Positions 1-44,413 of a stretch of 64,000 nt of DNA are shown piece after piece (positions within the stretch are counted from its first letter, which is position 1; every line of letters starts with the position of its first letter). The notes below the pieces were generated by a model. The model was not told the origin of the DNA. It was given only the letters and a program-made list of their open reading frames with translations, and searched no databases. Source of the stretch: Raphanus sativus (lineage: Eukaryota > Streptophyta > Magnoliopsida > Brassicales > Brassicaceae); contig NC_079517.1 in NCBI RefSeq assembly GCF_000801105.2, forward strand, positions 23,194,973 through 23,258,972, in the 5' to 3' direction. The position numbers and the translations under genes were made by a program.

Positions 1-446
1 TTTCTTAGACTCTTCAAAGCTTGCCGTCAAAAACACTTAGAAGGAATATTTAAGCATTTCCATTAAGTTAAAAATCCGTCAGGGGCAATCTCGTAATTTG
101 GTGAAGTCTTGGTGAAGTAGTCGGCTAAACCATTTTGTCCTCGATATCGATCGACAACACTAGATGTGTATCGATCGATTATAATGTTCTAGTACGCGGA
201 TCTTCTCAGCTACATCGATCGACAACTCAGGATGAGTATCGATCGATTCTAATCGCAATGTTGACTTCCGACTTGGTCTTGAATGGTCAACTCGGGTGTA
301 TTATCTCTTGTACTAAAAAATGCTCCAAAAACATCACTTTATCATGAAACGCTCATGAACCTGAAAACATACCTAACAGGCTAGAAAACACATTATAAAA
401 CACTAGTATACCATGGTAGAAAATGGGTGAAATCCATGGTATATCA
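1..446 (-). repeat. Element A 3' LTR, cut by the window edge
   Basis: On the minus strand this LTR starts TGATATACCATGG at 446, directly after the polypurine tract, and continues out of the window. It matches 8190-8642 closely, with small substitutions and one short indel near 8582. It contains TCGATCGA boxes in pairs about 24 bp apart (near 145/169 and 213/237). Confidence 0.88.
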
Positions 447-461
447 ACTCCCCCAGACTTA
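447..461 (-). other. Polypurine tract of element A
   Basis: On the minus strand AGTCTGGGGGAGT abuts the TG that begins the 3' LTR. This is the expected plus-strand primer site of an LTR retrotransposon. A near-identical second tract lies about 1 kb upstream at 1452-1470. Confidence 0.8.
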
Positions 462-1978
462 CTCCTTTGCTTGTCCTCAAGCAAAAACCAGTAGTCTTTG
501 GAAAAGGTTTGAAAACAGTAGGAACTCAAAGATTCAAAATATTGAAGTCATCACTCTATGGGTTTGCAATTCATATCTAAAAATCCTAATCACAGAAATT
601 CATTATGCCTTATCCTAGCTTAGCAACCAAATTCATCTAGTCCACAACTTAGCAAATCTTATCTGACGTTCCTCTCTACTAACCTCATTTCTTAACATAA
701 AATAAAAGTGCAGGCTTTACCTTGGGAGTATCGAACAAAGGACACATGGATTCAACTCAAACAAGTATCTGAACACACATGTAGTCTTCTCTGGTCCCTT
801 TCTCCCCTCATCTCTCTTCTCTGAATCTCTTATTAGTTTCAATTTCAATAGGTTTCGATGTCACAAAGATCAACTAGTCTATCTCATTGACATTTGTATT
901 TGTAACTCATACATTTTGACAAAGTGTAGCGAATAGTGGGGTCATAGATAATGTACCTACCCCTCGTTTCCACAATGTGTGATCATCCTTGAGATTTAGA
1001 ATAGTGGGATCACGGGTAATGTACCTATCCCTCTGACTCTCAAGAAATCATTTCAATCTTTTATAACTTAAAACTTAGATCTTTGAGATGCCGAAGAGAG
1101 AGAAGGAAGGGAACCAGAAACACACAGACTTTTTACCTTCCAGACTTGTAAGGGGATTCCGATCCAGTGATTTCCAAGCCCCAAGACAAGCAAATAAGGC
1201 AGTATTAGTGTTGGAGGTCAGCTTTGGTTCCTTCAAACAATTTCAGCTAGTGTATATTGTTGATAGGTTGATCCACTTTAGCATCTTTAGTACTATCTGC
1301 AATCAGTAAATCTAGAATGGTGCTAAAGAGTGGTCAAACAGTCAAATATAAATCTATATCAATGTTCTCATTTAATACTTATGTGAAAAATAATTTTGAA
1401 AAACATTTTAAATAAAAACCAAAATAAAAACAATAAAAAACACATATTAGTAGACTCCCCCAGACTTAAATTACACTGTCCCAGTGTAACACATCCGGAG
1501 TGAGGTAAATAAATAAATTATAATAACTGTATATAACAACGACTAAACATGACCGCGATGGTATCGATCGATACGTAAAGATATACGTCGATCGTTAGTG
1601 ATGGTCGTGTTGCGTCGAGCGATGTGAATGGAATGTGTCGGTCGACGGAATCATCATTCTACTTGGATCTTTTAAAAACTGCAAAAATAAAATGCGAAAA
1701 CTAAAAGTAAAAATGTAAAAATAACTTTAAAAGAAAATAAAAGAAAACCTAATAGTGGGTTGCCTCCCACTCAGCGCTTTGTTATAGTCATTTAGCTTGA
1801 CTTTGGTTGGTGTGTGACTCAGGGTGTGCAGAAACTGCTGCTTATCGGACAACAAGCATCAATTTCGTGTCTCCTACTATCAAACCATGTGGCAATGAAG
1901 CTTCGTGTGGCATCATCACTTCTTAGCTGTTTCTTATCTATCTTGAGGACTGTATCTGTGAGCTTCCTCAGAGTATTC
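462..1978 (-). other. Element A 3' untranslated region
   Basis: About 1.5 kb without a convincing gene; it is collinear with the 3' region of D (21236-22541). It holds a small hairpin at 1755-1770 (GTGGG stem), a four-box 24-bp-type lattice at about 1564-1645, a hairpin at 1471-1489 (TTACACT stem) and an internal purine tract at 1452-1470. The part from about 1815 to 1978 encodes, out of frame, the conserved C-terminus of the upstream ORF. Confidence 0.7.
1471..1489 (-). other. 3' UTR hairpin next to internal purine tract
   Basis: A perfect inverted repeat, TTACACT and AGTGTAA around a 5-nt loop. It is conserved in D at 21545-21563, there with loop AGGAC. It sits one base from the internal purine tract 1452-1470. 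Function unknown. Confidence 0.65.
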
Positions 1979-3463
1979 TCAATATATTTGATGTTGCCAA
2001 CCTTCCTGATAGGTGTATTCTGACAACTCCCTCAGCTCATTCTGCATTGCATCAATCTTGTCATGAATCAGCTGATCTCGGTCTGCCAAGGACTCGGTGT
2101 CGATCGATGCTACAACTTGTGCGTCGGTCGTTTCGCTGGGCATTCTGTCGGTCGATCCAGTGTCAACTGTGTCGATCGATTCTGAAGGTTGTCCATGGTA
2201 CTGCAGAGCACGTATATCGTTCTTCATCTGTCGAGTAGTTCTGCATAAGCTGTTCACTCGTTCGTTTACAGTGGCGTCAATGTCATCACTTCTTCCATTA
2301 AGTCTCTCCTCCATAGTATTCATAGCTTCGTATAGCTCATGTTTGATCTGATCAACTTCTACTGCTGTGTATGCTCTCTTTGTTGGTGGTGGCTCGATGT
2401 CGATCAATATGGATCTAGGCCTGTCGATCGATGTCGCGTTTCTGTCACGAAGACCAATATGATCTTGAACTATGCCAATTTCTTGTTGCAACTCGTTCAA
2501 CTGTTGTGACAGTGTATCCAGGTATCGCATGATAGGTGAACTGAAGTGATCGTGATTTTCCTCGTATGATTTCATCCTGTTCTCCAGTGCTGCGAACCTT
2601 GTGTCGATCGATGATGAAGAGTTTGTGTCGATCGACGGGAAAGTAGCATTCTGAGCTTGACCTTTCTCGCAAATTGATGCTAACTCTTTCTGTAGAAGAT
2701 CAATCCTCTTGCTTAACCATTCGACATTGTTGTTGAGAGGGCTGTAGACGTCTCCAATCCTTGTATTGATGTAAGCAATCTCCCATTCATCTCTCTTAGG
2801 TGATGAACATTCTGGTCGGTTCTTGGATGTAGTCTTGCCGATGTCGATCGATGGTACAGGTGCTGTGTCGATCGATATAGGTGGCGTAGCTTCCTTCTCA
2901 AGCATGGTTATAATGTTCCCAATCCCCATTCTTAGCGCTGCCATGTCACTTTGGAAATCTTTATAGCTGATATCCAAAGGCTGGAAAGTATCTTCCACCA
3001 ATGTGCGAATGTCTGCCTCAAGGTGTGCCTGAGCTCTCCATACATCAGTCACCATATCATCTATCTCCTCTCTACTGTAGGGTACTGGTGGTGGTCTGTA
3101 TGCATGGTAAGGGCGTGTGTGTTCTGGAAGGCGTAAGCAACCTTTGTGAAAAAAAGATGCTCTCTCCAGAATTCTCCTTATGTGCTCCTTGGTAACAGGG
3201 ATGATTTCACCATCAACTCCCCTATCATGTCCAATCTCATCTCTGTGGACACCATATTCATCCTTTGATTCCCATTTGAATCTTCTGGATCCATCGGTAT
3301 TAAAGGCACTTCGTCCAAACTTCAAACGTCTGTTGGGCGATCTGACTCTTGCGCTGTCGATCGATCTGGGATACCGGCCGTCGATTAATGGTGATGAATC
3401 GATATCGATCGATGGTGAACTCCTAGGTTGACCGAAACTTTGAGGAACTGTATCCTCTCTCAT
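1979..3463 (-). CDS. Pol-replacing SID-repeat coiled-coil ORF of element A
   Basis: An uninterrupted frame of 494 residues occupying the place of pol. It holds no RT, RNase H, integrase or protease motif. Visible features are many Ser-Ile-Asp triplets spaced exactly eight residues apart (for example residues near 18-34 and a run near 440-470), a conserved block reading GEIIPVTKEHIRRILERA, and heptad-like stretches around EWLSKRIDLLQKELASICE and DQLIHDKIDAMQNELRELSE that suggest coiled coils. D, E and F carry homologous ORFs, so this is a family protein and not chance. Compared with D, the C-terminus is frameshifted after EYTY and the last 60 or so family residues lie out of frame down to about 1815. 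No enzymatic role is visible; a structural or nucleic-acid-associated role is a guess. Confidence 0.6.
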   Translation of the reverse strand: MREDTVPQSFGQPRSSPSIDIDSSPLIDGRYPRSIDSARVRSPNRRLKFGRSAFNTDGSRRFKWESKDEYGVHRDEIGHDRGVDGEIIPVTKEHIRRILERASFFHKGCLRLPEHTRPYHAYRPPPVPYSREEIDDMVTDVWRAQAHLEADIRTLVEDTFQPLDISYKDFQSDMAALRMGIGNIITMLEKEATPPISIDTAPVPSIDIGKTTSKNRPECSSPKRDEWEIAYINTRIGDVYSPLNNNVEWLSKRIDLLQKELASICEKGQAQNATFPSIDTNSSSSIDTRFAALENRMKSYEENHDHFSSPIMRYLDTLSQQLNELQQEIGIVQDHIGLRDRNATSIDRPRSILIDIEPPPTKRAYTAVEVDQIKHELYEAMNTMEERLNGRSDDIDATVNERVNSLCRTTRQMKNDIRALQYHGQPSESIDTVDTGSTDRMPSETTDAQVVASIDTESLADRDQLIHDKIDAMQNELRELSEYTYQEGWQHQIY

Positions 3464-4315
3464 GGTGATGTGGTGGTTGTCCTGGACGTGAGCTAGGATA
3501 TCTGGATGGCAACGTTGCTGTGTGAACAGGTTTTCTGGTCCATTGGCAACTTGGAGGATGTCTGCTATGTCTTCTCTGGTTATCTGCAGAACTCTTCCAT
3601 CTATTGCTCTTGCAAAGCCATCTGTATCCCTGAAAATTCCAAATTCATCAGGTGTTATTGAAACATTCCTGATATCATATGGATCATGAAATCGAGATTG
3701 AACTCTGGTTAGGGCATCGATCGATGGTGCAGTGGTGGTGGCGATCGATGGTGATCGTCTAGCTGCAAGGTTGGATCAATTGTTCTTGGTGTTGCAGTCC
3801 TCCATGGTTAAGTTGCTAATTGCTGGAAGCTGTTGGGTATAAGTTGTTGAGGTTTGAATTTTCGTGGCTGGTGTTGTCAACCTTATATACCCATGTGTTG
3901 CCCTAATCGGTGAAATTCTGATTTTGTCCTTTAAGTCGGCTGGGTCAATATTGATCGATGTGATGCTGGCGATGTCGATCGATGGACGATGTCATTTTAC
4001 TGGATGAAGTAGATAATCGATCGATGATGGACGCTGGATGTCGATCGATTTGGGGAAACAATTTGCAAATCTATCATTCTCCATGTAGTTTTCCCAAGCT
4101 CTTTCTTCCCAATAATCTTCATCATGTTCTTCAATGTGGTTTCCACTGTGGGAAGATCTGGTTGTATCTACTGCAAAACTTTCATGAAATTCGCTATCTG
4201 CCCAACTTCTTACTGAGTAATCATCTTCTTTTCTGTTGGGTGGGATGGCGAAATTCGGATAGCAATGATTTGGTAAATCGAGTTCATCATCTGGTGGGCC
4301 TCTGTCGATCGATAA
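3464..4315 (-). pseudogene. Broken linker between protease and SID ORF, element A
   Basis: No long frame survives. The stretch still has SID boxes (near 3716, 3955, 3977, 4017, 4040 and 4306) and acidic coding fragments similar to the E and F region that follows the protease. It was probably continuous with the downstream ORF in an intact family member; stops and indels now divide it. Confidence 0.5.
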
Positions 4316-5246
4316 TCAATGGTTGGTGTCGATCTCTTCTGAATTGATGGTGTCGATCGATGACGTTGAGGTGCTGTCGATCGATCCCGAGTACTCTGTC
4401 TCATACTCGACTTCACAATGACAAACTGCTATGATACCAAGATCATCTTCTTTTACCACGGTTTTGGCTGGTGGTTTGCCAAGTTTGACAGGGTCGTAGT
4501 GGATATCTGGATCTATCATAGTCAAGAACATCATGTTGGTGTTCATGTCACATATAGCTCCTACTGTAGCCATAAATGCTCTTCCAAGTAAGAGGGAAGA
4601 GTTCCAATTAAGCTTGATGTCTAGGACATGAAAATCCACAGGGACAATAGCATTACCAATCTGTACTTCCAGGTCTCTGATCAAGCCTCCAGAGTTTTTT
4701 CTGAGTGTAGTCCACAAATGTGAAGATCTCTGGTGAAGGCTCTACTTTCAGACCCAGATGGTCTTCCATGACCTTTGGTAAGATGCTGACTGATGAACCA
4801 GTGTCACATAGTTCATGAGGAAATTCAATCCCTTGTACTACACAGGGTATTGCAAACTTTCCAGGATCACTCTTCTTCTTCAATTTAATCTTTTTCCTCA
4901 TATGTTCTCTGACATTGTCAAACCTTCTTCTAATGTCATTTTCAGTCTCCTTTGTTTCTTTGAAGAACATCGACAATCTACTTGTGAAGTAAACCTCCTC
5001 AAAGGGTTTCTATAGTGGGATTCTGATAACTCTCTTAGTGAAACCATCAATCTCCTTCTCATTAGCTTCCCTCTTAAGGTTCTTAGGAGCTTTCTCCTTC
5101 CTACTCCTTAACCTTCTTCCTTCAGTTCCCTCTGATGTTGGTGTAGTGTCTGAAGGGTTACTAGTAGTCTCTGCAGGGTTAGCTTGTGGTTTCGGTGTGG
5201 GTCGGAGTGCATTGATTCGGTTTCTGTCAATCGATGGTAGTTGCAC
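4316..5246 (-). pseudogene. Retropepsin-like protease region of element A
   Basis: Three overlapping or adjacent frames (5010-5246, 4653-4976, 4316-4717) together encode a basic linker (KEKAPKNLKREANEKE), a segment FFKETKETENDIRRRFDNV, and an aspartic-protease core with CDTGSSVSILPKVMEDHLGL. The DTG motif is the catalytic signature of retropepsins. A conserved tail follows: FHVLDIKLNWNSSLLLGRAF. The frame changes near 4700, just after FVDYTQKKLW, so the protease is broken. The C-terminal end runs into SID octads (SIDSTSTS SIDTINSE EID). E and F carry the same protein. Confidence 0.75.
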
Positions 5247-5318
5247 TTGGTATGTGAGAGGTGCGTGTCGATCGATAGGTGGAGAAAAGGGTCGATCGAT
5301 ACGTGTCTCATCTTTTTA

Positions 5319-5879
5319 TCAATCGATGAGTGGCTCGTCTCGTCGGTCGATATCTTCGTAGGTGGGGGTGGGTGGATGAGGATGTGAAGCCGTGAATTCA
5401 GCATGTGTCAAGATTCTAACCGCGTTGCAATCTGCAGTCGTATCAGGAAATGACATCGTTTGTGTCGATCGATGTGGACAATTTGGTGTCGATCGACACC
5501 ACTGTGATCCTCCGAAACTTAGTGAACTTTCCACTTCAAAGTCTCCTTCTTGTAGCTTCTCATGCTTCACCACTTGCCAGAAATCATCATCTATAATGAC
5601 ATTCACGTGGTGTTTCCTGCTTCCTTCCCCTACTTCCTTAGAAGTTCCAATTCTGCTGATAGAGTCTTCAGTTTGGACAATCTGTGTCTCAAGCTTCCTC
5701 ACCTGAGTACAAATGGTGTCTATCCTTGTGTTCAGATTGTTGAAGACAGAGTCAATCTTTCCATTGAAGTCTACTGTAAGCTTCTGATGTCCTTCTAGAA
5801 CTCTATCAATCATGGCATCGAACTTACTCTCCTGGGTGGGTGGTGGTGGGTTTTGGTAAGCTGAGTTGCCGTAGTTCAT
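5319..5879 (-). pseudogene. Gag C-terminal region of element A
   Basis: A 186-residue frame with ESKFDAMIDRVLEGHQKLTVDFNGK and IDTICTQVRKLETQIVQTEDSI, a probable coiled coil that recurs in E (28247-28642) and F (40400-40735). It is followed by HVNVIIDDDFWQVV and a proline-rich spacer ending in an SID-type repeat. It belongs downstream of the gag core and upstream of the protease. No zinc knuckle is visible. Confidence 0.65.
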
Positions 5880-5963
5880 GGTGTTGGTGAAGGGTTTCTG
5901 ATACTGTGAACTCTGGTTGTAGTTACTCTTCTGACCGCTGCCAAAAAAGTTTATGTTTCCACT

Positions 5964-6701
5964 TTAGTTTCCATATCTCTGAAATCCAGTACCTCCAATG
6001 TAGTTCACATCTTCCTCTGTATCATCTCCTCTAGCCTCTTCTTCTTCAGCTGAGCAGACTGGTTGCCCTAAAAATGCATGCAAAGCATCTATCTTGGCTC
6101 TGACTTCATTCATCTGGTTCTCCCCGATGGCTGCAACCGATTTCTTCTTGTCAGAGTCAGTGTTCTTGGTGTTGCTGCTGTTGGCTAGGTTCTCAATAAG
6201 TCTCACAGCCTCTATTGGATTTCTGGTGTTGAAGTTCACCTCGCTAGCAGTATCAAGAGACATCTGATACCTCAAGGCGATACCTCTGTACAAAGTGCTT
6301 AGCAGCTGCACTTCATTAAATCCATGGTGTGGACAGTCTCGCTGGAAAAACTTAAATCTGATCCACGCGTCTTTAAAAGTCTCACCAGGCTTTTGCGTGA
6401 ACGTGGCAATTTTGCTCCTTAAGTCTTCAGCACGTGCCTCATCAAAGAAATTACGCAGGAAGGCGTTTTTAATGTCGGCTCAGGATGTCAGTGATCCTGT
6501 AGGTAGCTGCTTGAGCCAGTGTGAAGCTTCTTCAATCAGTGAGTATGTGAAGAGCTTGCAGAGTATGTAGTCCTCAGGGACTCCATCCATAAGGTCCTCG
6601 AACCTTTCCAGATGGTCCATAGGATGCTCGTGTGATAACCCAAAGAAAGGTATCTGAGACACGAGAGAGTAGTACTGAGGCTTGAGCTCGAAGTTCGGCT
6701 T
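5964..6701 (-). pseudogene. Gag core of element A (Retrotrans_gag-like), frameshifted
   Basis: Frames 6480-6662 and 5964-6311 hold the conserved plant gag block: FFGLSHEHPMDHLERFEDLM, ASHWLKQLPTGSLTSW, an F-x-FFDEARAEDLR-type segment in the broken middle, and LYRGIALRYQMSLDTASEVNF. This pattern matches the retrotransposon gag domain of Ty3/gypsy elements, which forms the capsid. The reading frame is interrupted near 6480 and near 6311. Confidence 0.75.
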
Positions 6702-7172
6702 CTAAATCTCTGGAAGTCGAATAGCTGATCTGTTGGTGTAGTACTCATCAGAACGATTGTACTCTGCCAACGATCGTGTTTGAGCTTTTCCTGTAGTCTC
6801 AACTTCAGGCTCAGGGATTATGTTTCCATGTGCATCTAGCTTCTGACATGTTGCATTACGCAGATGACCATCTTGGTCATACATGTTTCCATTCTCGTCC
6901 TGCGTGAGGATATCAATCGCAACCATGCCTCGCGAGTTAGTATCGATCGATGTACGGTGAGTAGTATCGAACGATGTGGATCGGCAAACGATATCGGTCG
7001 ACGGTGCTGACTGAGTGTCGGTCGACGGTTGAACGTGAATATCAGTCGACGGTACTGCGGTTCTGTCGATCGATGCGGAGCGTAGGTCTTTGCGGATTGA
7101 ACGTTCCAAGTGTGCAGGATCTTCTAAGAATAGTAGTTGATTTCCCTAATTGCTTCTGGTACTGCTGGGCAT
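6702..7172 (-). pseudogene. Gag N-terminus with SID/STD octad repeats, element A
   Basis: The likely start is the ATG at 7172 (MPSSTRSN), shared with E and F, followed at once by an in-frame TAG. The open part from 7109 reads LERSIRKDLRSAS and then octads beginning SID or STD (SIDRTAVP, STDIHVQP, STDTQSAP). A polypyrimidine stretch and CAG lie just upstream of the ATG, as in E and F. The block NMYDQDGHLRNATCQ and SLAEYNRSDEYYTNRSAIR follows and is shared by the whole family. Confidence 0.65.
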
Positions 7173-7267
7173 GTACCTGAAAAGACAAGAAAAATTTTAA
7201 TCAGAAAGGTGGTAAAGAAAAGAAAAACCTAAGATTAATAAAATTAAATCTAATGGCGACCAAAGCT

Positions 7268-7285
7268 CCCCGGCAACGGGCGCCA
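7268..7285 (-). other. Primer-binding site, tRNA-Asp type, element A
   Basis: On the minus strand it matches the 3' end of plant tRNA-Asp(GTC) (TGGCGCCGTTGCCGGGG, recalled from Arabidopsis) with one inserted base. It lies four bases inside the LTR, the usual place. Confidence 0.85.
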
Positions 7286-7289
7286 AATT

Positions 7290-8642
7290 TGATAGTGCTC
7301 AAATTACCCAGTAGAGCTTACTCTCTCAAATAAGAGGTATAGCTGTAATACTTAGGAATCGAATCACGAGGAGCTAGGGAACCAATTAAATATAATCAAT
7401 TAATCAATCCTAGATGAAATTGGTTTTAATGATGAGAATGTAAATAACAATTCCTAAAATGAGCAAGGTAGTTTCTCTAACTAACAATATGATGGGGTGT
7501 TCAAATGAAATGAAGAGTGCTAGACTTAGGGATTTTATTCAGGAATGGAGATTATAATATCTATAAATGCTTGACAAGTTGCTTGCATGATACTATAGAA
7601 CTCAAGCCGCTTAACTCTCAGTGATGTCTCACTGGTTAAATAATCTAGATCTCTGGCCTCAACTGTCGTATGTTGACACAGAAAAAGAGTCGATCGATAT
7701 CCTTTAGAGATATCGAGCGATACACCTTTTGCTCGACGATCGATTCACCTGTCGGGATATCGATCGACGGCTTCTAGATATGCCTAGGCGCGAACCGATA
7801 ATGAACACTAGATCTCAAGGAGGGCGGTTAGCTCTTCTCCAAGAAGATACTAGTTCAAACAGATAATTCAAGATATCAAAGATCCTAGTGATCTATATTC
7901 TAGTTAGCTACTCTAGAACAAGCTTAGGGTGCAATCTATTTGATATAAATCACAACTTAGCAATTATAGTTTGGGGCTAATCTCACAAACCTATTTAAAC
8001 CCTAGATCTAACAAGTAGATTACTCAGACATAGCTAAGCAATTCATAACAATAGATAGATGAAAAAATTGCATAGATAGATAAAGAGTCGAATAACAAAT
8101 GGAGTTCACAAATCTCTCCAATCTCTCAAAACATGTAAAACTCTAGTCTCTCTCTCACACTCTCTGCTTTGCCTCTCAAGACTTGTGTTTCTTTGACTCT
8201 TCAAAGCTTGCCGTCAAAAACACTTAGCAGAAATATTTAAGCATTTCCATTAGGTTAAAAACTTGTTAGGGGCAATCTCGTAATTTGGTGAAGTCTTGGT
8301 GAAGTAGTCGGCTAAACCATTTCGTCCTCGATATCGATCGACAACACTAAATGTGTATCGATCGATTATAATCTTCTAGTACGCGGATCTTCTCAGCTAC
8401 ATCGGTCGACAACTCAGGATGAGTATCGATTGATTCTTATCGCAATGTTGACTTCCAACTTGGTCTTGAATGGTCAACTCGGGTGTATTATCTCTTGTAC
8501 TCCAAAATGCTCCAAAAACATCACTTTATCATGAAACGCTCCTGAACCTGAAAACATACCTAGCAGGCTATAAAACACATTAGATATATAATAAAATACT
8601 AGTATACCATGGTAGAAAATGGGTGAAATCCATGGTATATCA
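7290..8642 (-). repeat. Element A 5' LTR (1353 bp)
   Basis: Begins TGATATACC on the minus strand at 8642 and ends ACTATCA at 7290, giving TG...CA ends. TCGATCGA-type boxes lie at 7690, 7713, 7737, 7760, 8334, 8358, 8401 and 8425, spaced 23-24 bp within each group. A TTAAATA sequence near 8240 may be the TATA box. The flank after 8642 is element B sequence; the target duplication cannot be checked because the other end is outside the window. Confidence 0.9.
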
Positions 8643-21222: not shown

Positions 21223-21235
21223 ACACTAACAAAGC

Positions 21236-22541: not shown

Positions 22542-22552
22542 CTTGGGGGAGT
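22542..22552 (+). other. Polypurine tract of element D
   Basis: CTTGGGGGAGT directly before the LTR start TGATGTACC at 22553. Confidence 0.8.
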
Positions 22553-28020: not shown

Positions 28021-28246
28021 TGATCTTGGTTATGTCGATCTTTGGTAGTTGCACTCTCGGTTTAGGGACTTCGCATCGATCTATGAGAGTAGTGTCCTGT
28101 CGATCGATGGTGGTAGCAGTAGGGGGATCGATGTCTTCCTCTTCGGATCGATCGTCGAAAGGGTGGAGTGGGTTCGGGTGTTTCTCTGAGAATTCTTCAT
28201 GCGTTATTATCCGAACTGGGTTGCTTGTAGCCGTAGATCTAATGGA

Positions 28247-29706: not shown

Positions 29707-29800
29707 GCATCTGAAAAGAAAAATAAGAAAGATTTATCAGTGACAATAGTAACTAAAAAAAAACTAGACTTAAATAAAATCTAATGACGATCAAAGCTTT

Positions 29801-29815
29801 TCGGCAACGGCGCCA
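29801..29815 (-). other. Primer-binding site, tRNA-Asp type, element E
   Basis: Minus strand TGGCGCCGTTGCCGA, matching 14 bases of the tRNA-Asp(GTC) complement. It is four bases from the LTR. Confidence 0.85.
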
Positions 29816-29819
29816 AATT

Positions 29820-31160: not shown

Positions 31161-31180
31161 GGTAATTTGAGCAAGTATCA
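31161..31180 (+). repeat. Last 20 bp of element F's 5' LTR
   Basis: GGTAATTTGAGCAAGTATCA matches the LTR ends of A and E and sits just before F's primer site. The rest of this LTR has been displaced or lost where E abuts at 31160. Confidence 0.75.
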
Positions 31181-31184
31181 AATT

Positions 31185-31201
31185 TGGTGCCGTTGCCGGG
31201 G
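31185..31201 (+). other. Primer-binding site, tRNA-Asp type, element F
   Basis: TGGTGCCGTTGCCGGGG, one mismatch from the tRNA-Asp(GTC) complement, four bases after the LTR end. Confidence 0.85.
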
Positions 31202-31302
31202 AGCTTTGATCGTCATTACATTTTATTTAAGTCTAGGTTTTACTTTTTGTCACCTTTTATTTGTTACTGATATTTTTTTTACTTTCTTTTCTTTTCAGGT
31301 GC

Positions 31303-33852: not shown

Positions 33853-33866
33853 GTTAGCCCCCCAGC
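33853..33866 (-). other. Polypurine tract of element G
   Basis: Minus strand GCTGGGGGGCTAAC directly before the 3' LTR. Confidence 0.75.
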
Positions 33867-36800
33867 CTGTAAGACGCGGAGACGATCTTGCGGGCGGAAG
33901 TTATGAGTTGAAAATCGAAATTTTTGGCTAAGAATATTTCATTGCGGAAATCCGCATCACCTTTGATTGTCGATCTCGAACGTGACGTCGGGATTCGTTG
34001 CTCAATGTGAAGAAAGAAAAGAACACATGTCCTCGTAAGTCCGTCGTCTTCAACAAAAGATTCAGAGGAAACGGGGACTTGCAAGTTAACGAAGAGGACT
34101 TCGACTCGAGTCTCGTTGGTCCGAATTCCGTGTGCACCCTTGTCCCGGATTTGGATGGTTCGGAGGATCAAGACCACACAGTCGAGGTTTGCGAAGCCGG
34201 CGCGTATGAGACGTGCAGCGGTGGTGCGACCAATGGAGGCGACGGTCGTTCCTACTTTGGGTGAGTTTTGATGAAGGCGGCGTTTCGGAGAACGCCTAGG
34301 TTTACCAATCCCTTTAGGGATTTTTATTTTGATTGTGTTCCGGCTGTTGGTTGGCCATTATGTATGATTTCGGAACTGGCCGTTGGTGGCTTTGAATCCC
34401 TGCCCTTTTAGGGCGTTTTACTGAATTCACGGTATGCGTTTATAAAATATTTTGCGTTTTAGAACTTCTGTTTATCGAAGTTAGAGGGACAGAGTGTGAC
34501 TTGTCGTCTCATTCCTGCCTCCCTGACGATCACCGTATTCGTAGTTTGTACAAAGCGAGATTTTCCTGCGGTTTACGATTTACACGAAAATTCGTGGAAA
34601 CGTATAGACTTGAGTGAAGAGACAAGTTTTGGGATCTCGCGTCGTTGACGCTTTACCTATGAGATGTTTAAGATACCAGCAAGGCTGGGTTTAGGGCAAG
34701 ACCTAGGTTTACTCTCAGACTGAGGCTGTGCGATGACAAATCGGCTTTCATTTTGCCTGTTTGTGATTTTAACCTGATTCGTACCGTTTTAAAATCCGCG
34801 AAGTGGTATCGGCTTATATGATTTGTATGGGCACGAATCGAGCTACTTCCTTTACGAAGTGCTGAACCAAATTTTGATTTTTTGTATAGCGCGCTATGGG
34901 ATCCTTGTCGGATGTAAAAGAGCCTACCCTTAGGTGGCTTGTCTGTTTAGGACGTTAGAGTTCGTTTGTTGTGATCAGCAACAACGATATGATGCCGTTT
35001 AGAAGGCGTATGAAGGTTTTAATCGAAAAACGGATGTTCGGGCACGAAGCGACGTCTTGCAGTGCTTTGAAGTTTGTTTTTCTTATGCCATAAAGGACTA
35101 TGGGCTTTTAGAAATCGCGGAATGTTTCCGGGCGATAGTTTTATGGTTTGTTTGGTGGATACTGGATCCATTGTAGAGGCCGTTTAGCGATTGGCGAATT
35201 TGTTTGCGAAGAGTTTCGAAAATTCGGTTTCTGCGTTTGTAAAGAGTTTCGAAAATCCGGTTTCTTTAAAATCGTGGGAGTATACGAGAATACACATTTC
35301 AAATGTGTACGAGTTAATTTTCCCTTGTGCCGCATTTCAAATGTTCGCGGGCTATGAGATGTTTTGCGAAAGTCCGTAGTCAGAAACTGTTGTTTCAGTT
35401 TGGACGTGCAAGTATATTTGACCCAGGGAGAAGCGTCTACCTTTGAGAAGTGTTGGCGTTCTTGGATTTTATGGATGACTCGTATAACTCTTGGAGCTTT
35501 GTCACGAGTGTTTCTCTTCATGCTTTGTTTAAGGGGTGTACAGAACTTAATCGATCAATGATAAGTTCAAATTTTTCCGTTAACCGAATGGTTGTTAGGA
35601 CTGATTTTATTATGAGGAATTTATCGCATGATTTCCGCTTTTGGGTTTTGAAACACAGTTGATCGCGTAATGGTCACTTGGCGTTTTATGACAATCATGG
35701 ATTATCGTTTGGCCGTTAAGTGATTGGAGCGGCGGTCGTTCAGCTTTTTTGTCTTGGCGTGAAGGCTGTGTTCAGCCGTATAACCAAGGAGTTGGTAAAC
35801 GATCAGACCATGACCCTTTCACATTAAGGTCGTATTGGTTTACGATTGTCCTTAATAGTGATGCCGAATTCAGGTTCGGGCTTTATGGAAAGGAGTAGTT
35901 GGCCGAGGGCCGAATAGCGTTCGTTGAGATAGACATGCAAATCTTAGCGGAGTTTTCCAAGTTACGGGTGATGGATTTTTGAAATGATTTTCCACTTTAG
36001 GTTTCAGTTATACGAAAGTAATCGATGACTGGTTTCATGGAGATAGAATATCGCAGATAGTCAAAGTAGCACTGTTTCTGTGGGTTATACTGGAAATGTT
36101 TCCGCTTTGATTTCGTCTTTTAATGAAAGTTCTTCGAGTTACTCATGGAGTTTTACCGAAGGTTATTTCGTTAATTTTGTTGCTCACCATCGTGCTATTA
36201 GTCTGACGTTGTAAAAGTTTCTTGTCGCGAGTTTGCAACAAGAGACGGCGTAGAGTTTTCAAGACTATGTTTGTAACGGTTTGACCACGCCGTTATGCCG
36301 CTAGTGTTTCGGACGAATCTTAGAGTGTCGTTTGCCTTTTGAAAGGAATTTTTTCTTTAGGAAGTAGAATGAGTATGCCAAGGATGCGTGGCGATCGTTT
36401 CTCGGTTTTTCGAGAGATTAGATCGGTCTGCATGTTCTGCCTAGACAGTCAAGGAACAATAGAACAAAACTGGAAGAAAATGCCTAAGACTTAGCTTGCT
36501 AGAGTATCCACCTAGGTCCTAAGTTCCCTAAATTTTCCGGCAGTTTACAAGACGTTTTCATTCCTATCCTACGAAAAGATTAAAACCTTGATAAAACTTT
36601 CAAAGTCGGACGTACCTTAGTCTCTTTGATTATTCTTTACTCGATATTGCCTCATGTCTGTTCCTCTGTCTTCTAACGTTTCATTGTCAAAGGACTTCGA
36701 AAAGTCTGATACTGAATCGAGAATCGATTTTCGATGAAATCTTGGCGAAAATATCGGTATGAGAGAGAGATATTAACGCCTAAGTTCATGTCCTCATTTC

Positions 36801-37189
36801 TTTCGTACTGCTGGTTACCTAGTACCAGAAGGAACAATGCAGAACCGTTGAAACAAAGGGAGGAGAAGTAAGCGATAACTCGAAGAAGGCTAAGGTGGGC
36901 GGACAAGTGAAAATGATTGGCAAGACGTCACTTAAGTGAGGCTTCTTGTTTCGTCAAGCTATGAGCAAACTGGTCAGGTCAAGAAGCTTGCGATCTTGTT
37001 ATACTTTACGAATGATGTTTCGTAAAATATTGTCGAGCTTTTATTTAACGAGAGTTATTCAACAAAATGTTGTCGAGTTAATTTTACGGAAAGTGTTTCG
37101 TAAAATTGGTTTGGATAGTCGTTGGGTCAATCTTTACGAGGATTGGCCGTGCTTGACGAATGTTGTGTCGCCCGACAACCAGCGCAGTA

Positions 37190-37440
37190 CGGGTGCGCTA
37201 GTCGTCTGGCGCCTAGAGGCAGCACGGGGTCTAGCCGTCCGGCGGCCAGAGCCAGCACGGGGGCTTGCCGCCCGGCGGCCAGAGCCAGCATGGGGGCTAG
37301 CCGCCCGGCGGCCAGAGCCGGCATGGGGGCTAGCTGCCCGGCGGCCAGGGCCAGTACGGGGCCTTGCCACCCGGCGGCCAGGGCCAGCACGGGGGCTAGC
37401 CGCCCGGCGGCCAGGGCCAGCACAGGGGCTAGCCGCCCGG
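37190..37440. repeat. Internal 33-bp GC-rich array of element G
   Basis: About eight units around GCTAGCCGCCCGGCGGCCAG; the same period as the LTR array but with AGAG or AGGG variants in the unit. It is probably derived from an LTR-type U3. Confidence 0.82.
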
Positions 37441-37589
37441 GACTGTGCTTCCTCGCGGGACTTGCCTGTTTTTCTCGGTTTCTCTTGAGGTTTCTCGATC
37501 AACACTTGGTTTTTCCGAGGACCTTCAGGTATCGATTTCATCTTAATCGATCTTGATCCCAGCAAGAAGTCATTTCCTAGAACGTTGTT

Positions 37590-37750
37590 GATTTTTTATT
37601 TTACGAGAGTTATTTTACAAAATGTTGTCGAGTTAATTTTACGGAAATTTTTTTGTAAAATGTTGTCGAGTTTAATCATGCAAAAGCTGTCTTGTAAAAT
37701 ATTATCGAGAATTTATTTTACGAAAGGTTTTCCGTAAAATGTTATCGAAT
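37590..37750. repeat. Repeated TTTTACG/CGTAAAA palindromic segments
   Basis: Three to four segments of about 45-55 bp with TTTTACG, CGTAAAA or TGTAAAA arms and a TGTTGTCGAGTT spacer. A related pair is at 36990-37110. Each segment could fold into a short hairpin. Not coding. Confidence 0.6.
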
Positions 37751-38043
37751 TTTAACATTAGAAACGCTGTTTCTCAAAAAACATTTAAACTCGAAACCCT
37801 ACTCGCTGAGATTTCTCAAACTCGGTATTTAGACCGTCATATCAGTCTTGGGCTCGATCCTATTCTAAAATCGTATGTGGGCCATTTAGCCGCGATCCGG
37901 GCCCCTTTTGGGCCGTCTTGGGACTTATACGTTTTTACGATTTTTCCTTAGAAACAGCCGTTGATGTGACGCTGGTTTTTCCGAAAGGATTTCAATTCCC
38001 CGTATAGTTAAGGCGACTAGTGTTCAAGCTAACCATAGCCGTT

Positions 38044-38367
38044 TTATACGGCAGGTAGGAATCCGTCTCGATGACCAAGTCTTTTATAAATTTTCCCGAA
38101 GTCTTTCTTTGATAATCCCAAGGGAGGGGGGTTGTGTCCATGGACCCGAGGATCGTGTTGCAGGAACTTGGACGGGGTGCATTGTTGATATGACCCGAAC
38201 TTGGTCGGGATGGTCCGTTCTCGGGACGTTTGTCCGTAAGATGATAATCTTATATAACCGTTTGCATAAGCGTTGGTCGTAGGAACAGTCACTGCTGAAG
38301 TTGTTTTACCAGCGTCGATGTGAGCTGCGAGTTTGTCTTTCATATTTCCAGACATTACTTTGATCAA
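38044..38367 (-). CDS. Small ORF after G's primer site, unknown
   Basis: A 107-residue frame starting MIKVMSGNMKDKLAAHIDAG about 60 bp inside the element, the normal place for gag. It contains SGNMKDKLAAHIDAGKTTSA and PSKFLQHDPRVHGHNPPP. I do not recognise a gag domain or zinc knuckle. It may be a relic of an N-terminal gag or a chance frame. Confidence 0.35.
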   Translation of the reverse strand: MIKVMSGNMKDKLAAHIDAGKTTSAVTVPTTNAYANGYIRLSSYGQTSRERTIPTKFGSYQQCTPSKFLQHDPRVHGHNPPPLGLSKKDFGKIYKRLGHRDGFLPAV

Positions 38368-38404
38368 GCGTTTTGCGGCCGTAAGAGTAAGAGTAATCCG
38401 TCCC

Positions 38405-38422
38405 CCCCTCCTTCTAGCGCCA
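38405..38422 (-). other. Primer-binding site, tRNA-Asn type, element G
   Basis: Minus strand TGGCGCTAGAAGGAGGGG, a full 18-base match to the complement of plant tRNA-Asn(GTT) as I recall it, three bases from the LTR. Confidence 0.88.
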
Positions 38423-38425
38423 AAC

Positions 38426-40002
38426 TGTGGGAACCGAAATTCGCACTGTCGATTTTTATTAAGTAAATCGGAGGAAAGCTAAGTAAACCTAACTTTCCCT
38501 GAAGGTCCGGATTCTCTGCGACATCCAACGACAAGTGATCAAATAAATGCGGAAAGGTTTTATTAAGATTTGAGACTGGACCTTAAGGAAGGCTGCCTAC
38601 GTACCCCTTTCGAGGATCAAGTCGGACGTAGTTCAGTTGGAAGAGTTTGAACAAGAGATCGAACTGCCTGGCGGAGTTCGTCTAGTATGAGCGTTAGTCA
38701 TAGAAACGGGCCTGTCGAGAATAATGCCTAGGGTTTCTAGGTGCGGAACTCTAAGTAAAAGGATTGTTAGATCCTTCCGAGAGAGACATGAGTCTGCGGA
38801 CAAGATGAAAATAGAACGAGAGGCGGCCGGACGTTCTAGGTCCTGCCTTGCTAGTCTACCGCCTAAATTCTAAGTTCTTAAGCTAACATGAGCTCTCTAG
38901 GTCTCCAATCTCGGATTTGCTTTCCCTCTAGGATTTTTGCTCTGCCTTTCCTTCTCTCCCAAAGCTCCTTTATATACTCCTTCTTATGACGGTCTATTCT
39001 CCTTTTGGGCCGCGAAGCGGGCTTTTTCCATTTTCGTCGGCCTTCATGTTTATCGGGAAACTTAACATTTATCTTCGGGAAAGTTGACATTTATCCTTCT
39101 GGAAATTTAGCATTTATCTTGTTATGTAAAGATAAACGTAAATCGTCGTATCTATCTCAGATAATCGTAAGCGGACTGTCCAATCGCGTTTGGTCCCTTT
39201 CGGGCCGTCTCTGGGACTTCCGTTGTTTTCTACGATTTCTTCGGAAGATCTTCAATCCTTCGTAGAGTTGAGATGAGTGGTGTCTTAATATAACCATCAA
39301 TGTTTCGCACGAAGAATTTAAGATCTTCCTTCCCGTTGATATCTTACGAGTTTCCGAAGTGTTTCCGACAATCTTAGTTTGGAGTAAGAACGGGAGTTTT
39401 GTACGCGTAATCTCAACGATTCATTCCGCGAAAAACTTGGGAAAGACGCAAATTACAGACTTCTGACGGCCGGGGTCTAGAAATTATGCACGGAAGCTTG
39501 TCGCCCGACGACCCGAGCCAGCACGGGGGCTAGCCGCCCGGCGGCCACGGCCAGCACGGGGCTAGCCGCCCGGCGCCCACGGCCAGCACGGGCGCTAGCC
39601 GCCGGCGGCCACGGCCAGCACGGGGGCTAGCCGCCCGGCGCCCACGGCCAGCACGGGCGCTAGCCGCCGGCGGCCACGGCCAGCACGGGGGCTAGACGCC
39701 CGGCGGCCACGGCCAGCACGGGGGCTAGCCGCCCGGCGGCCACGGCCAGCACGAACGCTAGCCGCCCGGCGGCCACGGCCAGCACGGGCGCTAGCCGCCC
39801 AGCGGCTACGGCCAACGCGGGGGCTAGCCGCCCGGCAGCCACGGCCAGCGCGGGGGCTAGCCGCCCGGCGGCCACGGCCGCGACCGGGGTCGGGTGCTCG
39901 GTTCCTTCGGTTTACGGGTGTTCGTGTTCGTTTTTCGGAGGGTTTTTCGTGTGACAAATAGACATAGCCATTGATTCGAGATAACCGTTTTTGACCCCAA
40001 CA
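38426..40002 (-). repeat. Element G 5' LTR (1577 bp)
   Basis: Near-identical to 32356-33852. It is 80 bp longer, mostly because its 33-bp array has two more units. Confidence 0.92.
39505..39890 (-). repeat. 33-bp GC-rich minisatellite in G's 5' LTR
   Basis: Eleven copies of the unit seen at 33430-33735, where there are nine. The two LTRs of one insertion were identical at birth, so the arrays have changed length since, unless the change arose during copying. Confidence 0.9.
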
Positions 40003-40007
40003 AACTT
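40003..40007. other. Target-site duplication of G, right copy
   Basis: AACTT, identical to 32351-32355. It also forms the first codons of the resumed F gag (NFNTRNPEEA). Confidence 0.9.
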
Positions 40008-41025
40008 CAACACCAGGAATCCAGAAGAGGCTGTGAGACTTATTGAGAACTTGAGAACTAGCAACAATACCAAGAACACAGATTATGAAAGGAGAAAAGC
40101 GGCCAATGTCTTAGAAAAGGAGCAGTTGGACAGTGTTACAAGATACTGAAGAAGCAAGTTAGTTTTGCTGAAGATGTAGAAGCTGTAGAGACTGATGAGG
40201 AAGAAGATGTGAACTACATAGGAGGATTCCAGAGATATGGGAATCTGAATCAGAACAAGAACTTCTATGGCAACAGTCATAGGAGTAATTTCAACCAGAA
40301 TTCATAGTACCAGAAGCCCTTCAGCAACAGCAACAACAACTAGAACAGCAACAAGAACTCACCAATTCTTTCTACCATAATCCACCACCACATACTCAGG
40401 AGGGCAAGATTGGAGCCATGCTTGACTCAGTTCTAGAGGGTCAACAAAAGCTCACAGTGGATTTCAACGGGAAGATAGATGATGTGTACAATAGCTTGAC
40501 CTAAAAGTTTGACACTTTGATCACTCGTGTGAAGAAATTGGAGACACAAGTGGTTCAGACTTCTGAAGCTATCAAGAGACAAGAAGCTTTCATCAAAGAC
40601 AGAGAGGAAGATCTCATCAGACACCACATCAGTGTTATTGTGGTAGATAATTTCTGGGAAGTGGATGGACATGGGAACCCTTATAAAAAGGTTGCTGGAA
40701 GCCGGCGATGCAATGAATATCGACACCCATAGATCGATAGAAGATGAACACGATCGATCGACATGGGAAGGAGACTACCGTTCGATGTTCGAGGTAGGAA
40801 ATCGATAGACAGAGTCCACAAGATCTACGGCTACGAGCAATCCAGTTCAGATAATTACACATGAGGAGTTTGCAGAGAAACACCTGAACCTACTCCACCC
40901 TTTCGCCGATCGATCCGAAGAGGAAGAAATCGATCCCCTTACTGCTACTTCCATCGATCGACATGACACTACTGTCATCGATCGATGCGAACTTCCTAAA
41001 TCACAAGTGCAATTACCTAAGATCG

Positions 41026-41030
41026 ACATG
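41026..41030. other. Target-site duplication of solo LTR H, left copy
   Basis: ACATG, matched by ACATG at 42278-42282. Confidence 0.88.
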
Positions 41031-42277
41031 TGTTGGCGTCAAAAACGGTTATCTCGAAATCAACAGCTAAGATTATTTCCTATCTATGGACTTTCCGCGA
41101 AACAATCATTGAAAGAAAGATCGGAAAAGAACGGACGCGACCGAAGCATGGTCCCAGGCGCCGGTGGCTGCGACCAAGGCACGGCCTCGGGCGCCGACGG
41201 CTGCAACCAAGGCGTGGCCCCGGGCGCTGGCGGCTGCGACCGAGCCGCGGCCCCGGGCGCCGGCGGCTGCGACAACGCCGTGGCTCCACGCGCCGACGGC
41301 TGCGACAACGTCGTGGCTCCGCGCGCTGGCGGCTGCAACCGTGTCGTGGCCCCGGGCGCCGGCGGTTGCGACCGTGTCGTGGCCCCGGGCGCCGGCGGCT
41401 GCGCCCACCTAATCTCGGCCTGTCCGACTTATATCGTTTTCCGTGACTTCCATATACTTTCGTATGGTTGTGTCATCTCAGCTACGGACCTAGTGTCTCT
41501 TGGTTCGTCTCGATTAAAGTTATCGTCTAAGTTTTACGACTAAAACTGAGAAGGTTGGTTTTCTCGTAAAGTGTATCGTTTAAAACAAGAACGATTGACT
41601 TAAACATCGATTCTTTAAGCTATACGATTTATTTTACGAAGAAAGGCAATCTTTCCGAAAAATCGTATAAACGTTCAAGGGCTTGAAACGTGCCCACAGA
41701 CTAACTTACGATTTTAAGGATTCAGGCCCAACAAAGCTATGACGGTTTATTCTATTTCCCGAAAATAGGATAAATGTCAAGTTTCCAAAGATAAATGTAA
41801 AAATTCGAAGATAATTATGAAGATCGACGAAAAATGGGATATTCCCAAAAAGAGATAAACTTGGGCCCAAAGGCGAAAGAGTAGCAAGGCCACCGACCTA
41901 GACATGTATATAAAGAGGGCTGGAGAAGAAGAAAGAGGGATCCGAAAATAAGAGACCTAGAGAATTCATGTTAGCTTAGAGAACTTAGGGCTTACGTGGT
42001 TAGACTAGCGAGGCAAGGTTAGGACATTTTAATGCCTGCAGCTCTATCTTTTCGGTCGTAGCATATCTCTTCTCTTTTTCGGAGAAACCTTGTATTCGTA
42101 TCGTTCAATTAATAAAACGCCATCGAGCGACTTTCTATTTACGTTTTGTCATTTTTTTTCTTTTTCGATTTCGTGTGGTTACGCAGAGAATCCAGACCTT
42201 CTGGAAAAGTCGGGTTGTCTTGGCCTTCCTTCGTATTTTATTTTTAAAAATCGACAGTGTGAATTTCGGTTCCCACA
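41031..42277 (+). repeat. Solo LTR H (1247 bp), related to G's LTR
   Basis: Ends TGTTGGCGTCAAAAACGG...TTCCCACA, the G-type termini read on the plus strand, flanked by ACATG on both sides. No second LTR or interior is present, so an insertion collapsed by LTR-LTR recombination. A TATA-like TATATAAAG lies near 41907 and AATAAAA near 42112. The bulk sequence is diverged from G's LTR. Confidence 0.9.
41145..41410 (+). repeat. 33-bp GC-rich minisatellite in solo LTR H
   Basis: About eight 33-bp units around GGCGCCGGCGGCTGCGACC, in the same U3 position as G's array but with a different unit sequence. It opens glycine/alanine-rich frames on both strands that are not genes. Confidence 0.88.
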
Positions 42278-43140
42278 ACATGACCAAGATCGATGCACTC
42301 AAGACCCGACCCAAACATTCAGATAACCAATTAGAAGAGGCTGAGGATACATCAGAGCCTATGGAGATAGAAAAGGAAAGTGCAAAGAGGACCTTAATAA
42401 AAAGGAAAGAGAAGGTCCCCAAGAACCTTAAAAGAGAGGCTAACCCAAAAAAATTGGAGAACTTCAAGAAGAGAGTTTTGAAGATCCCAATAGACAGACC
42501 CTTTGAAGAAGCTTACTTCACACACAGATTGTGGATGTTCTTCAGAGAGACAAGAGTTACAGAGGCTGACATTGAGAAGATGTTCAACCTAGTCAGATAT
42601 GAGCTGAAGAATAAAATTACCTTGAAAAAGAAGAGTGATCCTGGGGAATTCATTATTCCATGCTACATCAAGGGAATCGAAATCACCCGTGCACTATGTG
42701 ATACAGGAGCATCACCCAACATCATACCAAAGGTTATAGAAGATCATCTAGGTATGAAGATAGAACCTACAAAGGAGTTCTTTTGCTTTGTAGATTGTTC
42801 AAGGAAGAGTTCATTGGGAATCACCAAAGACCTTGAGGTACATATTGGCAATGCCCTAGTTCCAGTTGACTTTCATGTCATAGACATAAAGTTAAATTGG
42901 AATTCTTCTCTATTACTTGGAAGATGATTCTTAGCCACTGTTGGAGCTGTTTGTGATTTGCAAACAACCGAGATGTGCTTGACCCTGATCAACCCGAAGA
43001 TTTACTATGATCCAGTCAAGATTGTCAAGCCACAGACGTCCTGTAACCAGCCTCCAGATGAAGCTAAACTCGTAGCACATTGCTACTGTGAAGTCGAGTA
43101 CGAAACAGAATACTCGGAATCGATCGACAGCCACACATAG
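42278..43140 (+). pseudogene. Protease region of element F
   Basis: Follows H's right duplication in frame: the acidic/basic linker (EPMEIEKESAKRTLIKRKEK), FFRETRVTEADIEKMFNLVR, the protease core RALCDTGASPNIIPKVIEDH and NALVPVDFHVIDIKLNWNSS. DTG is intact. A TGA after LLLGR at about 42925 interrupts the tail, which resumes CLTLINPKIYYDPVKIVKPQ and HCYCEVEYETEYS. Confidence 0.78.
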
Positions 43141-44413
43141 TTATCGATCGACACTGCTACCCAGCCATCGATCGACCAGTCAGTTGTTACATCGATCGAT
43201 TCAAGCAACAGTTTTCACTCCACATCGATTGATAGTACACCTTTGTACGAGGTTGTTCACTTTTTCGGTGATTATTCAGTTGGGAGTTGGGAACCAGACT
43301 ACTACGTGCCTACATGCGCAGTGGAGACATATGAAGATGATCATGATGAGGAATACATGAGGGAAAAGGATGATGAGTATGATGAAGATTACTAGAAAGA
43401 AAGAGAGATTGAGTACTCTTTCCTTCGAAGAGATGAAGTACCCACCGATATTTTTCCCACCCTTTCATCCAACCACAACACACATACACCTACCACAAAG
43501 GCACCAATCACAAACCGATCCTAAGATCAGACAATTGGAATTCGATCGACACATCTCATTGGGCATCGATCGATACGAAAGTTTTTACAGAGCATGATAG
43601 ATTGCCAGCACACTGCTACCCTACCTTTGCCGTAGAAGCTAATACACCTTCCCAAAACTAGGAAGAACATGAAGAGAACCATAAGGAAGCACCCGCTACC
43701 GATCTACAAGGAGTTCTCGCCAGATATGGATCTCCGTCACATGGAACCATGCTACCCAAATCGAGCGACAAACCACAGTCAGAATCGATCGATATCAGTA
43801 CAAGTCGTAGACAACACGAGGAGAAATCGATCGGCACAACTACTAGTAAATCGATCGATACTCGTCCAACCGTCATGAAAAAAATTGGAAATTTCAAAAA
43901 AGGAAATTCCGAATTTGGAAAAATTGGAGATATAGAGCACTATAAAAGAAGCCATGGGGTAGAAGCTACTTCTCAAACCCTAAAAGCAGTAAAGATGCAT
44001 CAGCCACTTTCCAAACCTCAAGCTAATGGAGACGCATTCAGTTGCAGACTTCCCCATCAGCTACACAACACGAAATCGATCGACAAGCATTCATCTGAAT
44101 CGATCGATACTAAGCTCTTATCATCCAATTCTCATATTAATACTAAGTTAGATCACGATTACCTAAGACCAAATAAAATTGGTAATTTCAGGGACACAGA
44201 AGGCCAGAGAAGAGCTGCAAAAAGGCCAATGACTGCTATATTAAATCCTTAGAGCAGAGAAGAGATGGATGAGAAGCTGAATAAAATCTACACCATTCAG
44301 TATGATTAAATGAATGATTTCAAGTGCAAACTTGATAGTGTCTACCATCCCCTCAATGACAAGATTACCTGGCTGACCAAGACCCTGAAGCAGCTTTCAG
44401 ACAACGTCATCAT
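43100..44413 (+). pseudogene. SID-repeat ORF of element F, broken
   Basis: Starts in the octads SIDTATQP SIDQSVVT SID, with a TAG in the first. An acidic Tyr/Asp segment follows, then frames near 43669-43878 and 43749-44252 (SIGTTTSK SID, SIDKHSSE SIDTKLLS, RDTEGQRRAAKRPMTAILNP). The equivalent E segment precedes EEVDEKLNEIYTIQYDSMND, also seen here at about 44255-44320 with stops. The ORF is cut at 44413 by an LTR before its C-terminal half. Confidence 0.62.

Follow-up and report, generated by a model that had tools for sequence, protein, structure and literature searches.

A 24-bp lattice of palindromic boxes in a radish LTR-retrotransposon family: putative sites for a dimeric DNA-binding protein

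The palindrome TCGATCGA (the box) recurs at a spacing of 24 bp in coding and non-coding DNA of radish (Raphanus sativus), concentrated in one family of long terminal repeat (LTR) retrotransposons. These are termed SID elements here; in their coding parts the box is mostly read as Ser-Ile-Asp (SID). The lattice was followed from a window (the whole stretch of 64,000 nucleotides analysed, on contig NC_079517.1) to the genome assembly. In coding and LTR parts selection acts on the DNA or RNA, not on the peptide. The best explanation of each box is a putative site for a homodimeric DNA-binding protein that would mark SID copies, an interpretation with about an even chance of being right.

The window contains 91 exact boxes, against 1.36 expected under a first-order Markov model. 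Of these, 90 fall within SID-family sequence (A, D, E, F and the right-edge piece), which covers approximately 25.8 kb; the remaining 38.2 kb, other LTR elements included, hold one. If up to one mismatch is permitted, the predominant inter-box distance in the window is 24 bp (57 pairs), well ahead of 48 bp (20 pairs) and 72 bp (14 pairs). The whole assembly (433 Mb) was scanned with the reversed pattern as control, giving 29,483 single boxes (control, 7,524), 8159 box pairs 22–26 bp apart (control, 1) and 4181 pairs 27–56 bp apart (control, 18), these pairs being assigned to elements at the sampled loci only. The flanked pattern RTCGATCGAY-N14-RTCGATCGAY occurs 7401 times (control, 0), so that in 90.7% of the 22–26 bp pairs the spacing is exactly 24 bp and each box is preceded by a purine (R) and followed by a pyrimidine (Y). 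The five sampled loci with a whole or nearly whole element each carry the exact core 24–36 times.

Recurrence at 24-bp steps, the starting observation of a sequence-only reading of the window, is borne out by these counts. The lattice also survives the collapse of duplicated contexts: when similar spacers of neighbouring boxes are merged (window and loci L078–L098), the largest numbers of distinct contexts are still found at 24, 48 and 72 bp (12, 8 and 7, respectively), with 23 bp next (5). Boxes occur outside coding DNA too, and other genomes were compared through their proteins. Such a lattice is not described among the literature titles and abstract openings matched, and among the 40 matches listed, of 333 papers containing TCGATCGA, none is by title on a plant retrotransposon. 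In viral contigs, 69 stretches carry a 24-bp pair, none of them resembling the window by blastn or tblastx; a second scan of viral contigs found no relative.

Conservation of the boxes in coding and LTR parts

Codon usage was analysed at 182 in-frame SID sites whose frames are supported by homology, from the 15 sequences with coding marks among 19 examined; these are related copies and not independent. At these sites Ser is encoded by TCG in 176 of 182 cases (137/1089 outside SID), Ile by ATC in 170 (384/890 outside SID) and Asp by GAC in 145 (418/1077 outside SID), the wobble base of Asp lying outside the palindrome. The wobble base preceding SID is a purine in 179 of 182 cases, compared with 49% elsewhere.

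The boxes are not confined to one reading frame. Across the 15 sequences, some of them frameshifted copies, the SID frame accounts for 166 coding boxes and the two other frames for 31 and 29. One sampled copy has an unbroken open reading frame (ORF) of 1832 amino acids (aa), consisting of Gag, protease and then SID linkers and a coiled coil. Its 26 boxes split 20/3/3 over the three frames, and 1000 synonymous shuffles of this ORF give a mean of 3.05 boxes and a maximum of 8. The proposal that coding boxes are always read Ser-Ile-Asp is contradicted by this split, and by a box pair of element A (5465/5489, in ORF 5319–5879) that is read Arg-Ser.

A protein search yielded 103 homologues, all with Brassica or Raphanus names save two that are nameless. 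In these proteins SID recurs at 8-residue spacing 263 times (0.02 in shuffles), RS 16 times in 12 proteins (1.4 in shuffles) and DR 23 times (2.0 in shuffles); among the 21 DR matches listed, 13 belong to a single homologous IDR array shared by five proteins, and in five an R follows SID. The lattice accounts for many Brassica and Raphanus proteins with SID repeats that are named "uncharacterized" or "hypothetical". When the 15 SID sites of one Raphanus protein are compared with 38 Brassica proteins, identity is 0.91 at S, 0.63 at I and 0.89 at D, and 0.08–0.40 at residues -5 to -1 and +3 to +7. In the predicted structure of homologue P0001 (mean predicted local distance difference test score, pLDDT, 49.6), 14 of the 15 SID sites fall in stretches with pLDDT below 50, between predicted helices, indicating that the linkers holding the coding boxes are probably disordered. 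The model has no Foldseek match at E <= 0.001.

In LTR alignments of 65–75% identity, box columns are identical at 0.964 and other LTR columns at 0.744 (29 distinct query boxes), CpG is kept at 0.923 in boxes and 0.497 elsewhere, and 73% of 64 box instances are intact; these instances are not independent, and choosing boxes exact in the query favours the boxes, in the CpG comparison likewise. Two subfamilies have LTR stretches (145–612 and 145–647) that blastn does not align with each other, and 24-bp box pairs are present there in both.

The two LTRs of an element are identical at insertion, and differences between them record later change. Twenty LTR pairs were fetched, of which 10 were excluded as having no overlapping LTR and one for 14% divergence. 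Over 14 within-element pairs, 13 of 512 box columns differ, compared with 371 of 14,831 others. Change after insertion thus proceeds at the background rate; the boxes are not mutational cold spots, and are kept by selection on the replicating lineage. Frozen synonymous positions, the shuffle test and the keeping of boxes in LTRs together uphold the proposal of the sequence-only reading that a DNA or RNA pattern is maintained rather than a peptide. Its further proposal, that the spacing is kept in LTRs and untranslated regions (UTRs), is upheld for the LTRs, and a 3' UTR example exists, but boxes outside the LTRs and masked coding parts are at background in the most divergent alignments (see below).

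Structure of the SID elements

SID elements are LTR retrotransposons, with paired LTRs, target-site duplications, a primer-binding site (PBS) and a polypurine tract. Four complete LTR pairs of approximately 1.34–1.43 kb, with PBS, start with TGATAT and end with ATCA. Matching 5-bp target duplications flank 10 elements (L084, L088, L090 and seven others); they are imperfect in L079 and unreadable in the other sampled elements. None of the 10 duplications resembles the box, and the box as an insertion target was rejected. A polypurine-tract pattern is present in L079, L084 and L088. Upstream of the tract, an inverted repeat (GCTTGAGGACAAGC) is seen at L079 8140, L084 1649, window position 484 and in some other sampled copies. 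The PBS, TGGCGCCGTTG(C/T)CGG, follows the 5' LTR and presumably fits tRNA-Asp. tRNA-Asp is among the primers listed for non-chromoviruses (PMC6317226).

The 1832-aa ORF matches Retrotrans_gag in Pfam (E 3e-21) and, weakly and under the Pfam cut-off, an aspartic protease (4.8e-05), which in L096 is over the cut-off (6.3e-07); Pfam finds only gag and protease in this ORF. The LTRs of this copy are 99.4% identical over 332 columns. A protease query gave, at first look, 2058 candidates in the genome, and all 150 that were scored matched. In tblastn searches with five window queries for reverse transcriptase (RT), RNase H (RH) and integrase (IN), which retrieve one another at E 1e-8 or better, no match was found inside SID elements at 12 sampled loci, several of them partial; the only matches (L089, L096) are on the opposite strand, past the last box. 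The RT, RNase H and integrase of an autonomous Ty3/gypsy element were thus not found within the elements at the sampled loci, and a search that was not exhaustive found no autonomous partner.

In the related SID element of L090 (2883–4253), the gag ORF has at its N-terminus an array in which short T(V/I)H repeats are interspersed with SIDTVH, ahead of a Retrotrans_gag match. The direct repeats of a short element in L080 (1745–2640 and 5340–6211) are 84% identical; this element bears box pairs, has no match to the PBS pattern used and is possibly another box-bearing family.

The SID elements of the window and their boxes are listed in Table 1. The boxes of E at 24303..24382 are assigned to a UTR because the stretch aligns with the 3' UTR of A (1513 onward). 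The four-box layout of the A 5' LTR (8334..8433) recurs in the L079-type LTR. The right-edge pair probably belongs to a SID element of the L090 type, with its PBS and 5' LTR beyond the window (L094, antisense).

The box positions given by the sequence-only reading are exact boxes apart from the following corrections. The first four boxes of the E LTR exist 2 bp from the places given, and 30312 has two mismatches and is no box, as has 3381 in A. The positions 23454, 7713, 24327 and 24375 are right, with one mismatch each, whereas 7737 and the pair 8401/8425 shift by one base to 7736 and 8402/8426, again with one mismatch each.

Table 1. SID elements of the window, their box groups and a nested element
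Feature	Coordinates	Strand	Parts and boxes
SID element A	1..8642	-	3' LTR part 1-446, 3' UTR, ORF 1979-3463, upstream coding to ~5500 (protease, gag C-end), 5' LTR 7289-8642; 31 exact boxes
A SID/coiled-coil ORF, 494 aa	1979..3463	-	linkers between predicted helices change fast and hold the SID boxes (structure and conservation taken from Raphanus homologue P0001)
A box pair read Arg-Ser (CRSTPNCPHRST), not SID	5465..5496	-	24 bp apart
A 5' LTR boxes	7690..7767	-	7690, 7760 exact; 7713, 7736 between, one mismatch; steps 23, 23, 24
A 5' LTR pairs	8334..8433	-	pair 8334/8358 and one-mismatch pair 8402/8426; spacing 24, 44, 24
SID element D, 5'-truncated	19950..23545	+	coding ~19960-21150, 3' UTR, LTR 22553-23545; 12 boxes
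D LTR boxes	23430..23508	+	23430, 23478, 23501 exact; 23454 one mismatch
SID element E	23546..31160	-	3' LTR ~23546-24259, 3' UTR, SID coding ~24500-27800, protease, gag ORF 28999-29706; 31 boxes
E 3' UTR boxes	24303..24382	-	24303, 24351 exact; 24327, 24375 one mismatch
E 5' LTR	from ~30101, outer end 31008 or 31160	-	
E 5' LTR 24-bp tandem array	30216..30318	-	exact boxes 30218, 30242, 30266, 30290
SID element F	31161..44420	+	split by nested LTR element; protease-bearing ORF 42175-42927, SID coding to 44252; 14 boxes
Nested LTR element in F	32356-40002		LTRs ~92% identical; no boxes
Right-edge box pair	63849..63880	-	two boxes; edge piece of SID family

Other repeats were noted in the window. 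The LTRs of the nested element contain GC-rich 33-bp tandem repeats (33410–33728, 39488–39879), and a third array lies at 37197–37440. Upstream of the protease part of F (41137–41407), a different GC-rich 33-bp repeat of approximately eight copies is present and is read as Gly/Ala-rich repeats in an ORF there. In the region 45600–59100, sequences recur several times in direct and inverted orientation, with 16-bp tandem repeats (49489–49550, 53709–53768, 58597–58658) and a 256-bp tandem duplication (50153–50657).

Possible functions of the lattice

The bases flanking the box provide a guide to its possible reader. LTR boxes end in A..T (49), G..T (47), A..C (16), G..C (5) or other bases (1), R and Y varying independently, and the symmetry of R before and Y after holds in both coding and LTR copies. 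As the flanks are symmetric as R..Y yet independent of each other, a dimeric protein on duplex DNA fits better than self-pairing of RNA. A homodimeric protein would bind each RTCGATCGAY box, and dense coverage of the whole element would let it mark SID copies specifically. The element itself, the host or an undetected autonomous partner might supply the protein.

The likeliest use would be either the activation or de-silencing of marked copies, by analogy with VANC21, a protein encoded by a transposable element (TE) that finds VANDAL21 via dense YAGTATTAY motifs in tandem repeats (PMC5735166), or the singling out of copies for help from a partner element. The coding boxes would sit in linkers tolerating any of the three peptides. 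In its fullest form, this reading makes the lattice an address code for the whole element: a dimeric, probably mobile-element-encoded protein would recognise, coat and de-silence (or mobilise) copies without a polymerase, and the encoded protein would be bent to the DNA code in three frames. As a whole this fuller form is tentative, and its prospects are well short of even.

Several observations weigh against a symmetric dimeric site. Neither Pfam nor a Foldseek search with the low-confidence model identified a DNA-binding family or fold in the encoded protein, and no trans factor was found. The 24-bp step is approximately 2.3 turns of B-DNA and not a multiple of ~10.5 bp. Neighbouring boxes would therefore face different sides of the helix, and helical phasing was rejected; of the phased array for a dimeric protein proposed by the sequence-only reading, the dimeric site is the best of its proposals, given the R/Y-symmetric flanks in coding and LTR parts, whereas the phasing is doubtful. 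The strict 24 bp may instead be a frame-neutral duplication unit that was later kept. The sense strand favours A after the core, and then Y in non-coding copies. The sense-strand variant TCGACCGA also outnumbers its reverse complement TCGGTCGA, by 36 to 0 in coding and 17 to 3 in non-coding DNA (raw counts) and by 5 to 1 in distinct lattice contexts, loci of uncertain orientation being omitted from both sets of counts. This asymmetry is not predicted by a symmetric duplex site and leaves room for an oriented or RNA role.

Further points weigh against a dimeric site. Boxes outside the LTRs and masked coding parts, which lie in UTRs and unmasked gag, are hardly better kept than their surroundings at 65–75% identity (0.741 vs 0.715; 10 distinct boxes), although an excess is seen at 75–82% identity (0.964 vs 0.831). 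VANC21 sites are mainly non-coding, whereas one unbroken SID ORF holds 26 boxes. CpG loss after insertion is 7/127 in boxes and 39/356 elsewhere over all 14 LTR pairs, a difference short of significance (p 0.08). Protection of box CpGs from mutation, suggested by nine pairs (5/100 vs 29/211, p 0.02), was not upheld: the same nine pairs realigned give 5/86 vs 29/225 (p 0.10) and five new pairs 2/41 vs 10/131 (p 0.73). An unpolarised count over seven pairs had given 4/62 vs 34/171 (p 0.015).

A role at the RNA level is possible but on balance unlikely. Boxes would pair with one another, so that genomes dimerise or are packaged along with a partner, or serve as sites for Gag or another RNA-binding protein, aiding entry into particles. 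A full-length transcript would contain boxes from every part of the element, and Gag and protease are kept, without RT or IN matches. An RNA role also fits the asymmetry between strands seen in the 3' flank and in TCGACCGA, but the central C of TCGACCGA would itself disrupt self-pairing. Likewise, raw one-mismatch counts in non-coding DNA show more C>T (17) than G>A (10), and only C>T keeps G-U pairing, but distinct lattice contexts give 10 C>T changes, at positions 1 and 5, against 8 G>A changes, at positions 2 and 6, which are small numbers. The commonest ends in coding boxes, A..C (160/226), are unable to pair, and in LTRs the R and Y ends vary independently.

A host chromatin signal, in which boxes recruit a heterochromatin or pericentromere factor favouring retention of copies there, is improbable. 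Among the matches listed on contig C1 (26.3 Mb), the first box pair is at 15.1 Mb and none is in the first 15 Mb, and all four scored Athila loci (PF03078) below 16.87 Mb lack a listed box pair within 5 kb, 92 of 501 PF03078 candidates having been scored. The absence of nearby box pairs at these loci suggests that boxes are not general to such elements; however, pericentromeric clustering is ordinary among plant LTR elements.

The possibility that the lattice is an unselected relic of slippage or template switching that multiplied a 24-bp unit is disfavoured and has little prospect of being right. A 24-bp unit preserves the frame, a genuine 24-bp tandem array is present in the E LTR and a 41-bp LTR piece with a box pair is itself duplicated. 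However, spacers diverged while boxes stayed, wobble bases in boxes are frozen, conservation extends across genera, and box identity between LTR lineages (0.964) contrasts with change at the background rate within elements.

Selection on Ser-Ile-Asp every eight residues, despite the real frame bias (20 of 26 boxes of the unbroken ORF) and the 263 SID pairs at eight residues, is very improbable given frozen synonymous positions and the same lattice in other frames and in LTRs, and as the sole cause it is ruled out by the codon and frame tests.

Relation to known systems

Clustered binding sites within a mobile element are known from the Su(Hw) array of Drosophila gypsy and the subterminal TNPA repeats of En/Spm. 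These are confined to one UTR or to the element ends and are not known to run throughout coding DNA. HIP1 (GCGATCGC) of cyanobacteria is likewise a highly iterated palindrome with a CGATCG core, but it is genome-wide in bacteria and linked to methyltransferases (PMC4390886), whereas the radish box is concentrated in one TE family.

SID elements resemble TR-GAG elements in that both have a pair of LTRs, an ORF with gag and signs of recent insertion, and neither has yielded RT or IN. They possess the two LTRs, intact gag ORF and lack of pol that define TR-GAGs, but also carry a protease and a long additional region. The TR-GAG described from Arabidopsis has one GAG ORF, of 562 aa, whereas the SID copy has the 1832-aa ORF of Gag, protease and linker/coiled-coil region, together with the lattice. 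They differ from the Athila/OTA clade of Ty3-gypsy in that no pol was found in them and their 1832-aa ORF has no match to Athila ORF-1 (PF03078), having Retrotrans_gag instead; separate PF03078 loci are present elsewhere in the radish genome. PF03078 is reported in only 16% of Athila elements (PMC6317226), and its absence therefore does not exclude the Athila clade.

As a DNA or RNA code that constrains coding sequence in all three frames, the lattice is a clear natural case, in an abundant TE family of a crop genome. The closest likeness is to VANDAL21 and VANC21, in that a short motif with degenerate pyrimidine ends is dense in one TE family and persists although the tandem repeats around it turn over (PMC5735166 and PMC10398659). 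Like the target of VANC-type anti-silencing, the box is short, dense and specific to a single TE family, as judged by the window. VANDAL21 motif arrays are described as dense, in the same orientation and of tandem-repeat origin (PMC5735166). VANDAL21 is an Arabidopsis Mutator-like (MULE) DNA transposon with a non-palindromic motif, YAGTATTAY, and a known TE-encoded binder, whereas the SID family is an LTR retrotransposon with a palindrome in its LTRs, UTR and coding DNA in three frames. If a protein reads the boxes, the motif gives a bait for isolating it, and sequence-specific TE marking would extend from VANDAL DNA transposons to LTR retrotransposons.

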